From Candidatus Poribacteria bacterium (GTDB lineage Bacteria; Poribacteria; WGA-4E; WGA-3G): a stretch of DNA of 64,000 bases. Below are positions 23,373-32,549 of the stretch, piece after piece (position 1 is the first letter of the stretch; each line of letters begins with the position of its first letter). A model generated the notes under the pieces. The model did not search any database. It saw nothing but the letters and a program-made list of their open reading frames with translations, and was not told the origin of the DNA. Position numbers and translations under genes: made by a program. Location of the stretch: NCBI GenBank assembly GCA_026710795.1, contig JAPOQK010000066.1:1-64000 (forward strand), read 5' to 3'.

Positions 23373-24416
23373 ATGCATATTAATGACCTGGACACTCCTA
23401 CTCTAATCGCTGACTTAGATGTACTTGAGAGAAATATTAGTGGAATGGCAAACCATTGCAGTGAGATTGGTATACCGCTTCGTGCTCATACCAAAACTCA
23501 TAAAGTACCAGAGATTGCAAAATTACAAGTTGATGCTGGTTCTCAAGGGATAACGTGCCAAAAGTTAGGGGAAGCAGAAGTGATGGTTGATGCTGGAATC
23601 GATGACATCCTAATACCTTATAATATCGTTGGGAAACATAAGTTGCAGCGGTTAACAGATTTGGTTAAACGAGCAAAGATTATAGTTGCACTTGATTCTG
23701 AGGAGACAGCAAAAGGTATTTCACATCAAGCGACAGCAGATGGGTGCGTCATCCCTGTTATAGTGGAACTGGATACAGGAAGCAGACGATGTGGAGTCGG
23801 TTCTCCACAAGATGCACACCGACTTGCCCAAAAGGTTGTAGAAATGCAAGGTGTTGATTTTCAAGGTGTGATGACCTACCCAAGCAATGTAAACGCGAAA
23901 CCTTTCATTTCTGAAACAGTTGATCTATTTAGGAAAGATGGTATTCCCGTGAATATTATCAGTGGTGGTGGAACAGGATCTGAAGCAGCATCCAAAGAAA
24001 TTGGTTGCACCGAAACGCGAAGCGGTTCTTATGTATATGAAGGGATGACGCGTATAGGAAATTCAGAAATGTTGTCACATGAGCGATGTGTCCTTAGGGT
24101 CCTCGTTACAGTTGTAAGCACCCCCACTCCTGATAGAATCATCATTGATGGGGGACAAAAGACATTTGCAAGTTACCCTCCTACACCTTATGGACATATA
24201 ATTGAACATCCTGATGCGAAAATATATGGAATGTCTGTTGAACATGGGCATGTTGATGTTAGCGAATGTTCTCATCGGTTTCGTGTAGGTGAAAGGCTAT
24301 CTGTGATACCACTGCACCAGGGAATGACAAGTAACTTGCATGACGAACTCGTAGGTGTACGTGGACATACAGTTGAAACTAAATGGCAAATTGCCGGAAG
24401 AGGAAAGGTGAAATAA
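23373..24416 (+). CDS. PLP-dependent D-threonine aldolase / DSD1-like enzyme
   Basis: A 347-residue fold-type III PLP enzyme (alanine-racemase-like N-terminal barrel). The PLP-lysine region RAHTKTHK is at 37-44 (K41 expected to bind PLP). The C-terminal part has the HGHVDVSE and PLHQGMT blocks that carry metal ligands in D-threonine aldolases and D-serine dehydratases. It likely cleaves or dehydrates a D-hydroxy amino acid. A PhyH gene overlaps its stop by 1 nt (TAATG), so the two are translationally coupled. Confidence 0.8.
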   Translation: MHINDLDTPTLIADLDVLERNISGMANHCSEIGIPLRAHTKTHKVPEIAKLQVDAGSQGITCQKLGEAEVMVDAGIDDILIPYNIVGKHKLQRLTDLVKRAKIIVALDSEETAKGISHQATADGCVIPVIVELDTGSRRCGVGSPQDAHRLAQKVVEMQGVDFQGVMTYPSNVNAKPFISETVDLFRKDGIPVNIISGGGTGSEAASKEIGCTETRSGSYVYEGMTRIGNSEMLSHERCVLRVLVTVVSTPTPDRIIIDGGQKTFASYPPTPYGHIIEHPDAKIYGMSVEHGHVDVSECSHRFRVGERLSVIPLHQGMTSNLHDELVGVRGHTVETKWQIAGRGKVK

Positions 24417-25132
24417 TGATACGACCAACTCCGGAACAGAAAAGACAGTGGGAAAATGAAGGTTATCTCGTATTTGAAAACGCAATTCAAGGTGACGAGT
24501 TGAAGCGGCTGCAATCAACTTTTGATTTTTGGGCTGCAGAATGTAAGGATGAATGGTTGGATAAGGTAGAAACAGGTGACGCAGCAGCTACATTCTATGA
24601 CATTCCAAATCCTCTTGAAAAAGACACTATTTTCATAGACATAATTGATCACCCAAGTTATTATGGGGCGTTGATGGAATTTACGGAAGACGACTTGATT
24701 CTGTTAGGTCCGCAAGTCAGAACAGTTGCACCCTTTCCTGTGAGTTATACAGCTTGGCATCCAGATGTTGGTAAGGACAGTCCGCTTCACATAAAAGTGC
24801 AAATTTATGTAAGTGATGTACCTGCCAAAGGAGGGGAATTTGGGTTTGTACCTGGTAGTCACAAACCGGATTCTGGTCCATACCAGCGTCCATTACTACA
24901 AGAGAGCATGCCGGGACATAAGACATTCCCGGGCAAAGCAGGAACTGCGATCATGTTCAATTCATGCGGTTGGCATGTATCTATGGACAATGCAACAGAT
25001 GAGCCAAGAAAATCAATTATCCTGATTTATGAGAAACGCACGTCTGGAAGGATTGGACCTACGCAGTTCGCATCTATATCAAAATACTGCACAACACCTG
25101 AGCGTCGGAGATTATTCAGTCTACCGGAATAA
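24416..25132 (+). CDS. PhyH-family (phytanoyl-CoA dioxygenase-like) Fe(II)/2-oxoglutarate oxygenase
   Basis: 238 residues with the iron-binding triad H115-x-D117 ... H187 and an Arg (R198) in position to hold 2-oxoglutarate. The typical FVPGSHK strand lies between. I chose ATG 24416, which overlaps the stop of the aldolase-like gene; the open frame extends 11 codons further into that gene. Substrates of bacterial PhyH enzymes vary widely and cannot be inferred here. It is one of three family members in the window. Confidence 0.82.
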   Translation: MIRPTPEQKRQWENEGYLVFENAIQGDELKRLQSTFDFWAAECKDEWLDKVETGDAAATFYDIPNPLEKDTIFIDIIDHPSYYGALMEFTEDDLILLGPQVRTVAPFPVSYTAWHPDVGKDSPLHIKVQIYVSDVPAKGGEFGFVPGSHKPDSGPYQRPLLQESMPGHKTFPGKAGTAIMFNSCGWHVSMDNATDEPRKSIILIYEKRTSGRIGPTQFASISKYCTTPERRRLFSLPE

Positions 25133-29911: not shown

Positions 29912-30775
29912 ATGCTGGATGAACGTCATCTCCAACATCAAATAACTGATGATCAACTCTGTGCATTAAATGCTGAGGGATATTTTATTGTTGAAGATGC
30001 GCTGCCGTTGGAACTTGTTGTTCAGTTAGAAGAACGTGTTGATGCTATATACAAGACTCATTTAGATGCTGAGTATGATCCGCATAGAAAAAAGCAGATG
30101 ACACCACACGATAATTTTTTCTATCCGAATTTTCTTGGAAAGGATCAACTCTTTGTAAATGTGTTGGACTGGTATAAGACTTTTCCAAAGGTGTGGGGAA
30201 TATTGGGTTGGAATATCTACTCATACCATAGTCATTTTATTATCACGCCGCCACGACCTGAACCTTCTCGTGGCAATACATCCCCACTCGGTTGGCATCA
30301 AGATAGTGGTCGTGTGAATATTGAAATTGAGAGTTCTCCACGTCCTCGTTTATCCATCAAAGTCGTGTATTGGTTATCAGATTGTTCGTTGCCAGGACGA
30401 GGGAATTTCTATGTGATTCCGGGAAGTCATTTATGGGATAAATTCCAACGTCCAAAAGATAACTCACTTCCTGAAGGTGCTACTGCGGTATGTTGCAAAC
30501 CCGGAGATGCTGTCTTTTTTGATAGACGGATATGGCATGCACGTAGTGAAAACGATTCTGACATCACACGGAAAGGTCTTTTTTATGGATATGGATACCG
30601 TTGGTTGCGCAGTAAAGACGATATGACTATTCCAAAAGAATTATTTGCACAGAACGATCCAATCCGTCAACAACTTCTGGGTGGTGGGACGAATGCAAAT
30701 GGTCATTTTTCTCCGAAGGATGCTGATGTGCCGCTGAAGGTGTGGCTTGAGGAGAAGGGTGTTTTATCCAGTTAA
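29912..30775 (+). CDS. PhyH-family Fe(II)/2-oxoglutarate dioxygenase
   Basis: 287 residues. Iron ligands H129-x-D131 (GWHQDSGR) and H209 (IWHARSEN) are visible, with the family YVIPGSHL strand between. GGAGGATATTGG precedes the ATG. It lies directly after the Gfo/Idh/MocA gene. PhyH enzymes hydroxylate diverse substrates; no specific one can be assigned. Confidence 0.82.
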   Translation: MLDERHLQHQITDDQLCALNAEGYFIVEDALPLELVVQLEERVDAIYKTHLDAEYDPHRKKQMTPHDNFFYPNFLGKDQLFVNVLDWYKTFPKVWGILGWNIYSYHSHFIITPPRPEPSRGNTSPLGWHQDSGRVNIEIESSPRPRLSIKVVYWLSDCSLPGRGNFYVIPGSHLWDKFQRPKDNSLPEGATAVCCKPGDAVFFDRRIWHARSENDSDITRKGLFYGYGYRWLRSKDDMTIPKELFAQNDPIRQQLLGGGTNANGHFSPKDADVPLKVWLEEKGVLSS

Positions 30776-30924: not shown

Positions 30925-31938
30925 ATGTTTCAAAAACTATTAATTCAAACTATTGGAGTCATTTTTTTATTTTCAATGATTCTGACTCCAGCAGTCTTAG
31001 CGGAGAAAGAAGTGGAAAAACCGAAAGAACTAACTGTTGGAATGGTTGCACCTGAATTTACACTTAAAGATGAAACAGGCAAAGAACGGAATCTTAACGA
31101 ATATTTAGGTAAGAAAAACGTTGTGCTTGCCTTTTATCCAAAAGACTTTACAGGTGGTTGAACAGCCGAACTCCAGTCGCTCCGGGATAAATTGAGCGAC
31201 ATAGAAAAAACGGAAACTGTCCTGTTTGGTGTTAGTGTTGACAGCGTTGATTCGCATAAAAGGTTTAAGGAACAGGAAAAGTTCGGTTTTTCATTGCTTG
31301 CAGATACAGAATTTGAGGTAAGTAAGCAGTATAGCGGGATTATTGAAAGGTTCAACGCATCAAAACGGACGACTTTTGTCATTGACAAAGCGGGATATAT
31401 ACGTGCTATAGATAAAGACGTTAGTGTTAGGACGCACGGTGAAGATGTCGTTACGTTACTTAATAAAGTTATTCCAAAAATAGAAGTTGGTCAATCTGCT
31501 CCAGATTTCATTGCTAAGGATGCTGAAGGGAAAACTTATCAACTAAGCAAGTTGCATGAGAAAAAGAACGTTGTGCTATCGTTTTATCCAAGAGATTTTG
31601 GTCGTGGCTGAACGCTTCAAGTTTGCTCGCTCCGTGATGAGTCGAGTAGTTTTGAAAAAAATGATGTCCAAGTCTTTGGTATAACACACAACGATGCGGA
31701 CTCACATAAAAAATTTACGGAAGATAATAACCTGAATTTCCCTTTGTTAGTAGATACTAACAAAAATCTCGCTTATTTATACGGTGCTGCAGAAGAGGAT
31801 AAGGATCGATTAAATCGCATGGCAGTGATTATTGATAAGACAGGTAAGATAGTTAAAATTGACAAAGATGTAAAACCAGCAACACACGGCTCAGATTTAG
31901 TGAATTATTTCAAGAATAATCCGCAAACCAGTAATTGA
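30925..31938 (+). CDS. Exported tandem peroxiredoxin, double selenoprotein (Sec79, Sec229; both UGA)
   Basis: One 337-residue frame if the TGA codons at 31159-31161 and 31609-31611 are read as selenocysteine. A signal peptide (about 1-26, ending VLA-E) is followed by two Bcp/AhpC-TSA peroxiredoxin domains (about 35-180 and 185-335). The first active site reads YPKDFTGGU, keeping the family P-x3-T-x2-C pattern with Sec79 for Cys; the second reads YPRDFGRGU with Sec229. Domain 2 has Cys234 five residues later, the Bcp resolving position; domain 1 has Gln there. The supporting Arg occurs in KRTTFVID and NRMAVIID. SECIS-like hairpins follow both UGAs, and the third TGA (31936-31938) is the stop. 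GAGGTAACAG precedes the ATG. It would reduce peroxides outside the cytoplasm. Uncertainty: selA/B/C/D are not in this window. Confidence 0.88.
31176..31200 (+). promoter_or_regulatory. Bacterial SECIS-like hairpin for Sec79
   Basis: GTCGCTC (31176-31182) pairs perfectly with GAGCGAC (31194-31200). The 11-nt loop (31183-31193) begins C-G, with G at its second base, and starts 22 nt after the last base of the UGA. Distance and loop G match known bacterial SECIS elements. Confidence 0.8.
31625..31647 (+). promoter_or_regulatory. Bacterial SECIS-like hairpin for Sec229
   Basis: CTCGCTC (31626-31632) pairs with GAG (31639-31641) and CGAG (31643-31646) around one bulged U; G31625-U31647 can extend it. 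The 6-nt loop CGUGAU has G at its second base and begins 22 nt after the UGA, exactly as in the first element. Confidence 0.75.
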
Positions 31939-32549
31939 TGAATCAAAAGACTATCTCACCATTTACGGAAAGGATTGCTCTGTGGACATCAGCAATATTC
32001 AGTCCGTTTATCGTTCCAATTGTAGCAGCTGTTTTCGTAATTCACAAAAATGCTGGAACAACTGAGGAAGTATTACTTTGGATCACAGTTGTAGCTATAT
32101 TTGTAACTGTATTACCGATATTGGCAATAGTTCTACTTTTTCGGTTATCGAAAGTGAGTAATGTTCATTTACATGCGAAAGAAGAACGACTGTTGCCACT
32201 TAGCTTAACAGTCGTCAGTATGGTTTTAGGTACTATTGTTCTTTACCGTGTGGGGGCAAATGAGAGAATCATCTGGGTATGTCAAGCGTATATCGTTAAC
32301 AGTGTAGTGTTTTCAGCGATTACGCCCTTCTGGAAAATTAGTTTTCACACAAGTGTTGCAACCGGTTGTATTATTGTCTTAGCGTTATTCGTCAATTATG
32401 TTTTGGTATGGCTTTTCCTACTTCTTCCGTTAATTGCATGGGCGCGAATTTACCGTAAACGACATACCCCACTCCAAACAGTTATGGGAACGTTCTTAGC
32501 CGTTGTTAACACAATGCTTTATTATTATATTCTGCCACCATCGGTATGA
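31938..32549 (+). CDS. PAP2-like integral membrane protein
   Basis: A 203-residue membrane protein with about five or six hydrophobic segments. Motif remnants fit the PAP2 phosphatase layout: KEERLLPL (K-x-R-x-x-P-like), SFHTSVATG in place of PSGH, and RKRHTPLQTVMG in place of the SR-x5-H-x3-D block, where the final Asp appears to be Gln. A PAP2-type lipid phosphatase or a degenerate relative is likely. I chose ATG 31938, whose first base is the last base of the selenoprotein stop (TGATG), implying translational coupling; a TTG one codon earlier is also possible. Confidence 0.6.
   Translation: MNQKTISPFTERIALWTSAIFSPFIVPIVAAVFVIHKNAGTTEEVLLWITVVAIFVTVLPILAIVLLFRLSKVSNVHLHAKEERLLPLSLTVVSMVLGTIVLYRVGANERIIWVCQAYIVNSVVFSAITPFWKISFHTSVATGCIIVLALFVNYVLVWLFLLLPLIAWARIYRKRHTPLQTVMGTFLAVVNTMLYYYILPPSV

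Follow-up and report, generated by a model that had tools for sequence, protein, structure and literature searches.

A tandem peroxiredoxin of Candidatus Poribacteria with two in-frame UGA codons, very probably both read as selenocysteine

Main finding

A single gene in the 64,000-nucleotide stretch of Candidatus Poribacteria DNA analysed here (the window) very probably encodes a peroxiredoxin (Prx) made of two fused domains, each of which would carry selenocysteine (Sec, U) where the peroxidatic Cys is expected, both internal UGA codons being read as Sec. The bacteria that carry it live in sponges. The tandem double-Sec protein is considered genuine and, as far as the search extended, previously undescribed; peroxiredoxins with Sec are already known, as are proteins of other families with two Sec residues. 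The first-pass annotation of this DNA had singled it out as an unusual two-Sec tandem selenoprotein, a view that is supported; no tandem double-Sec peroxiredoxin was found in NCBIfam or in the open literature searched (subscription papers and preprints were outside the scope); its occurrence outside Poribacteria is not excluded. The interest of the locus lies in a deeply conserved gene that needs two Sec insertions per chain, with a separate hairpin mapped for each, and that offers a natural test of how one message achieves both insertions and of whether Sec-Sec relays exist.

The gene and its predicted product

The gene spans positions 30925-31938 as a single open frame, with internal TGA codons at 31159-31161 and 31609-31611 and a closing TGA at 31936-31938. 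Translation with TGA read as U reproduces the 337-residue read-through product described earlier, with U79 in the motif YPKDFTGGU and U229 in YPRDFGRGU. Of this frame, ordinary ORF calling recovers just a piece of 139 residues (31192-31611), and standard gene callers would miss such a gene or split it. Its features are:

30925..31935, + strand: coding sequence for the 337 aa of the tandem double-Sec peroxiredoxin when UGA is read as Sec, followed by the terminal TGA (31936-31938)
30925..31002, + strand: probable signal peptide at the N terminus (residues 1-26, with K4, a hydrophobic stretch and V-L-A before E27; assigned by eye)
31027..31467, + strand: domain 1, peroxiredoxin fold, PxxxTxxU, without resolving Cys in the window's genus
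31159..31161, + strand: UGA codon, Sec79, peroxidatic position of domain 1
31477..31917, + strand: domain 2, also of peroxiredoxin fold, with PxxxGxxU-x4-C, Gly standing for the catalytic Thr in the window's family
31609..31611, + strand: UGA codon, Sec229, peroxidatic position of domain 2
31624..31626, + strand: Cys234 codon; this +5 resolving residue is Cys in 52 of 52 sequences and is the mature protein's sole Cys
31936..31938, + strand: terminal UGA, the true stop; no hairpin downstream, and UAA at this place in most orthologues

Both domains satisfy the profile and fold criterion for a peroxiredoxin: Pfam PF00578 (AhpC-TSA) matches each of them (E 5e-70), and the AlphaFold model, based on a 38-sequence alignment, contains two peroxiredoxin folds (mean pLDDT 90, pTM 0.84), the nearest solved structures being those of Bcp proteins and of the 1-Cys peroxiredoxin AhpE. 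Domains 1 and 2 of the window's protein have 62 of 147 residues in common. Export of the protein is probable, an inference drawn from the hydrophobic N-terminal stretch with V-L-A before E27; the hydrophobic start is common to the orthologues, and the pLDDT of the model in this region is low (41-53).

Conservation of the two UGA codons

The tandem double-Sec peroxiredoxin is an order-wide family of Poribacteria. Among 85 genomes of the phylum that were searched, 63 carry the gene with exactly two in-frame internal UGA codons, all of them belonging to one order and encoding proteins 50-89% identical to that of the window; two fragmented copies were found besides. Several of the double-UGA genomes are single-contig assemblies, and the named close relatives are Candidatus Poribacteria genomes. 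Of the fully aligned orthologues, 52 span the two sites, and every one of them has UGA, never Cys, at both, a retention that is not due to chance. Cys-containing homologues from other phyla have Cys in the same aligned column, in agreement with the earlier placement of both UGAs at the peroxidatic Cys, and the fixed positions of the codons among homologues remove the randomly placed stops that would have refuted it.

Purifying selection acts along the whole gene, the Nei-Gojobori pN/pS ratio being 0.16 before U79, 0.165 between the two UGAs and 0.195 after U229; the similarity of these values implies that translation goes past both codons in nature.

In the protein tree all domain 1 sequences form one supported clade and all domain 2 sequences another, and the fusion must, therefore, be older than the diversification of the order; the tree leaves unresolved whether the two domains are mutual closest relatives. 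No tandem Cys precursor was seen among the best 77 loci, and plasmid records returned, among the matches listed, just ordinary single-domain Bcp proteins, all below 60% identity. As to variants, one genome (G045) has a second copy of the gene (L073) in which the Sec of domain 1 is replaced by Ser and its Thr and Arg are lost, the U-x4-C motif of domain 2 being kept, and another (G016) has a lone single-Sec peroxiredoxin that resembles domain 2 (L074).

Hairpins downstream of the UGA codons

The criterion of a SECIS-type hairpin inside the coding region, just downstream of a Sec UGA, is satisfied at both sites, hairpin 1 being weak in the most distant families:

31176..31200, + strand: SECIS-like hairpin 1, GUCGCUC-loop-GAGCGAC, beginning 15 nt after the UGA
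31616..31656, + strand: SECIS-like hairpin 2; conserved core at 31625-31647, GCUCGCUC-CGUGAU-GAG-U-CGAGU; z -3.80

Folding of the window sequence gives -10.6 kcal/mol (z -1.69) for hairpin 1 and -16.7 kcal/mol for hairpin 2, and no hairpin after the terminal UGA (z +0.75), as the first-pass annotation had stated. At the equivalent stop, 56 sequences (one paralogue and one single-domain gene included) have UAA in 43 cases, UGA in seven and UAG in six.

A scan of 20 orthologues extended the comparison to 313 codon positions. At each of them, 39 nt (7-45 nt downstream) were folded and their energy was set against that of shuffles that leave the encoded protein unchanged and keep to the codon use of the gene itself. 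The two UGAs rank first (mean z -1.78) and second (-1.67) of the 313 positions, against a background over all positions of mean z -0.08 (sd 0.36). The offset was picked after the hairpins had already been seen, yet it is the same for every position; the sequences are related and adjacent positions are correlated, so that the rank is to be taken as evidence and not as a probability.

In the window's family hairpin 1 has a 7-bp stem, the outermost pair of which is G-C, C-G, A-U or U-G depending on the species and is mismatched in some orthologues; outside this family the hairpin is weaker and shifted. Hairpin 2 conforms to CUC(G/A)CUC-CGKGAU-GAG, with compensating changes in the lower stem from C-G to U-A and from G-C to A-U. 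A joint RNAalifold analysis of site 1 with all families together yields no structure; once the families are split a structure does appear, the partner strand of the stem lying at different places in different clades. No known RNA family was detected in the window by Rfam at the gathering threshold.

Selenocysteine machinery of the source genome

The first-pass annotation had named the Sec machinery as a check on its reading, and the Candidatus Poribacteria source genome (4.70 Mb, 94% complete) satisfies the criterion of having SelA, SelB, SelD and tRNA-Sec together: the tRNA-Sec scores 73.9 bits and has a UCA anticodon, with the SelB gene directly adjoining, SelA scores 612 bits, and the SelD gene itself contains a UGA in frame, at the active-site CAGU, after which comes a GCUC-loop-GAGC hairpin. 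In 50 of the family's 58 genomes SelA exceeds the cut-off. SelA and SelB are reported to be enriched in sponge symbionts with respect to their relatives (PMC5649159), and the tandem gene is consistent with this enrichment; no literature joining Poribacteria and selenoproteins was found, again with subscription papers and preprints outside the scope.

The tandem peroxiredoxin is not the only Sec redoxin of this genome. In four other redoxin genes an in-frame UGA is followed by a common CUC-GGU-GAG hairpin, with its loop starting at about +22 nt, and a search of the whole genome with this pattern gives five matches, four of which are those redoxin genes, the reversed control giving none. The redoxins of loci L003-L006 (contigs C44, C60 and C47), two of whose genes adjoin each other on C47, have UGA in frame close to a Cys, e.g. 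RTGGUTLC and ATGGUPFC, share the CUC-GGU-GAG hairpin and are probably exported or lipoproteins.

Asymmetry of the two domains

Beyond what the first-pass annotation had noticed, the two domains are not equivalent as judged from their motifs, domain 2 of the window's family being without the catalytic Thr and with a resolving Cys. In domain 1, Thr76, U79 and Arg148 are invariant in the orthologues and Pro72 is found in all but two, and the predicted catalytic motif, PxxxT/SxxC(U) plus Arg, is satisfied; its +5 resolving position is taken by Gln, Lys, Asn, Arg or Ser, with Cys in genus g4 only. In domain 2, U229, Cys234 and Arg298 are kept in all orthologues, Cys234 being the single Cys conserved across the mature protein (52/52). 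Here Gly takes the place of the catalytic Thr in every one of the 41 sequences from the window's family, and Thr is retained in families f2-f4, so that, on its residues, domain 2 fails the motif in the former and meets it in the latter.

Given that the Thr is lost from domain 2 and the resolving Cys lies there, we propose a division of labour in the window's family, with domain 1 reducing the peroxide and domain 2 acting, through its Sec and Cys, as the resolving or relay partner; the assignment is inferred, and no activity is known. The complete motifs of families f2-f4 suggest that both halves are probably peroxidases there.

Relation to known peroxiredoxins and selenoproteins

PrxU of Eubacterium acidaminophilum (Prx PF00578, TxxU; PMC13188914) likewise has Sec at the peroxidatic position of an AhpC/TSA fold, within PxxxTxxU. 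This known form has one Sec per chain, whereas the tandem protein has two domains, two Sec residues and a predicted signal peptide; against the PrxU model NF040737 the whole protein scores 110.7 bits, far below the curated cut-off of 270 bits. The best NCBIfam match of each domain is the Bcp/PrxQ thioredoxin-dependent thiol peroxidase (NF006960), whose C-x4-C spacing is retained in domain 2 as U-x4-C. Unlike Bcp/PrxQ, the tandem protein is fused, probably exported and has Sec in place of Cys; the domains alone score 96 and 97 bits against a cut-off of 140 bits, which the whole protein passes only by the sum of its two domains. No dedicated family for it exists in NCBIfam. Domain 1 is matched in sequence and fold by Mycobacterium tuberculosis AhpE (1-Cys; 1xvw, 4x1u), both being without the +5 resolving Cys, but AhpE is a single domain with Cys.

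A 2026 review of prokaryotic selenoproteins (PMC13188914) gives peroxiredoxins one Sec per chain and double-Sec proteins in other families only: MbdU, the HUGP/GUXX-star fusion and methyltransferase/UXPK-star also have two Sec per chain, but belong to unrelated families, none being a tandem peroxiredoxin. In the ocean survey of 2008 (PMC2398784) the fusion partner of a Sec-Prx is a phosphatase and not another Prx. A further related arrangement comes from Acidobacteria (loci L147, L149, L155, L160, L161 and L163), where two neighbouring exported Prx units each have one Sec-UGA with a hairpin and are without resolving Cys; unlike the tandem protein, they are two separate genes, not one chain, and form their own clade in the tree. 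Most of these Acidobacteria genes have a near-identical GGCGUAUCAG-type hairpin after the UGA.

Proposed mechanism and alternative explanations

Sec insertion at both sites is strongly indicated, albeit without experiment: the two internal UGA codons would be decoded by SelA, SelB, SelD and tRNA-Sec, with a separate hairpin, some 15-40 nt downstream, guiding the insertion at each. The product would be exported via the signal peptide and fold as two peroxiredoxin domains. Domain 1, with Sec79 and the full PxxxTxxU, would most likely be the peroxidase, a hydroperoxide oxidizing its Sec to the selenenic acid, and Sec229 and Cys234 of domain 2 may form a selenenylsulfide like that of atypical 2-Cys Bcp/PrxQ proteins. 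By inference, domain 2 of the window's family would serve mainly as the resolving/electron-relay half that regenerates domain 1, and would itself be reduced by envelope thioredoxin-like proteins supplied by DsbD; one DsbD-type transmembrane protein is found in the genome and could supply the electrons. Against the proposal as a whole stand the lack of protein or selenium data for the tandem protein, the outermost pair of hairpin 1 that does not form in some orthologues, the weakness and displacement of this hairpin beyond the window's family, and the expectation that two UGAs per message should reduce the yield of full-length chain.

Other accounts of the two UGA codons have to be weighed. That the gene is a pseudogene, or its stops an assembly or sequencing error, has nothing for it beyond the stops themselves and is ruled out for all practical purposes: the same TGAs recur in 63 independently assembled genomes, some of them single-contig, which excludes the sequencing error that the first-pass annotation had allowed for, and pN/pS is about 0.16-0.2 throughout. 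A genome-wide recoding of UGA, e.g. to Trp or Gly, deserves as little credit; several other genes of the genome do have in-frame UGA, but at Cys positions of redox proteins and in SelD, and next to a full Sec machinery, none being seen in non-redox housekeeping genes among the genes examined. UGA is, moreover, otherwise a stop, as stated earlier, closing 9 of the 50 main ORFs of the window, those of RuvC and RuvB among them. Bacterial Sec decoding competes with termination, and one may imagine that only the first UGA is efficiently decoded and that the second often terminates, leading to a regulated mixture, dependent on the supply of selenium, of a 228 aa single-domain product, in which domain 1 plus the linker would make a complete Prx fold according to the AlphaFold model, and the two-domain one. 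This is judged improbable, though not negligible: hairpin 2 is at least as strong as hairpin 1 and purifying selection is equal after U229, both of which argue that the full-length product matters; a truncated form as a by-product is still not excluded.

With both UGAs read as Sec, how the two domains cooperate is far less settled. Peroxiredoxin domains frequently dimerise, and the two halves may be independent peroxidases, the fusion doubling the active sites or making a built-in dimer without electron transfer between domains. This possibility, which we put just short of an even chance, draws on families f2-f4, with the full PxxxTxxU and the catalytic Arg in both domains, and on the separate adjacent Sec-Prx genes of Acidobacteria, with similar domains; it sits poorly with the window's family, in which domain 2 has Gly for the catalytic Thr and domain 1 keeps Thr, and with a resolving Cys that is invariant in domain 2 only. 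The selenium-relay reading, which would pair a 1-Sec peroxidase with a Sec/Cys domain devoid of peroxidase activity in an intramolecular selenium-to-selenium redox relay (Sec79-Sec229/Cys234) outside the cytoplasm, is offered as a tentative one that may well not hold. Its relay step, from domain 2 to domain 1, is equally doubtful, resting on motif loss alone with no data on the Sec79-Sec229/Cys234 distance, and the loss of Thr might leave the peroxidase activity of domain 2 altered rather than absent. The origin that forms part of the same reading, two Sec peroxiredoxins that fused and then specialised, remains similarly speculative.

Neighbouring genes

The peroxiredoxin stop is overlapped or abutted by a downstream gene (31935-32549, + strand; ATG at 31938) with a weak PAP2 match. 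Of 60 loci examined, 44 have a homologue of this PAP2-like gene, frequently just a few bases 3' of the stop, and the overlap or close spacing suggests that the two genes may be co-translated. Near the locus, two genes of the phytanoyl-CoA dioxygenase (PhyH) family lie at 24383-25132 and 29912-30775, both on the + strand.
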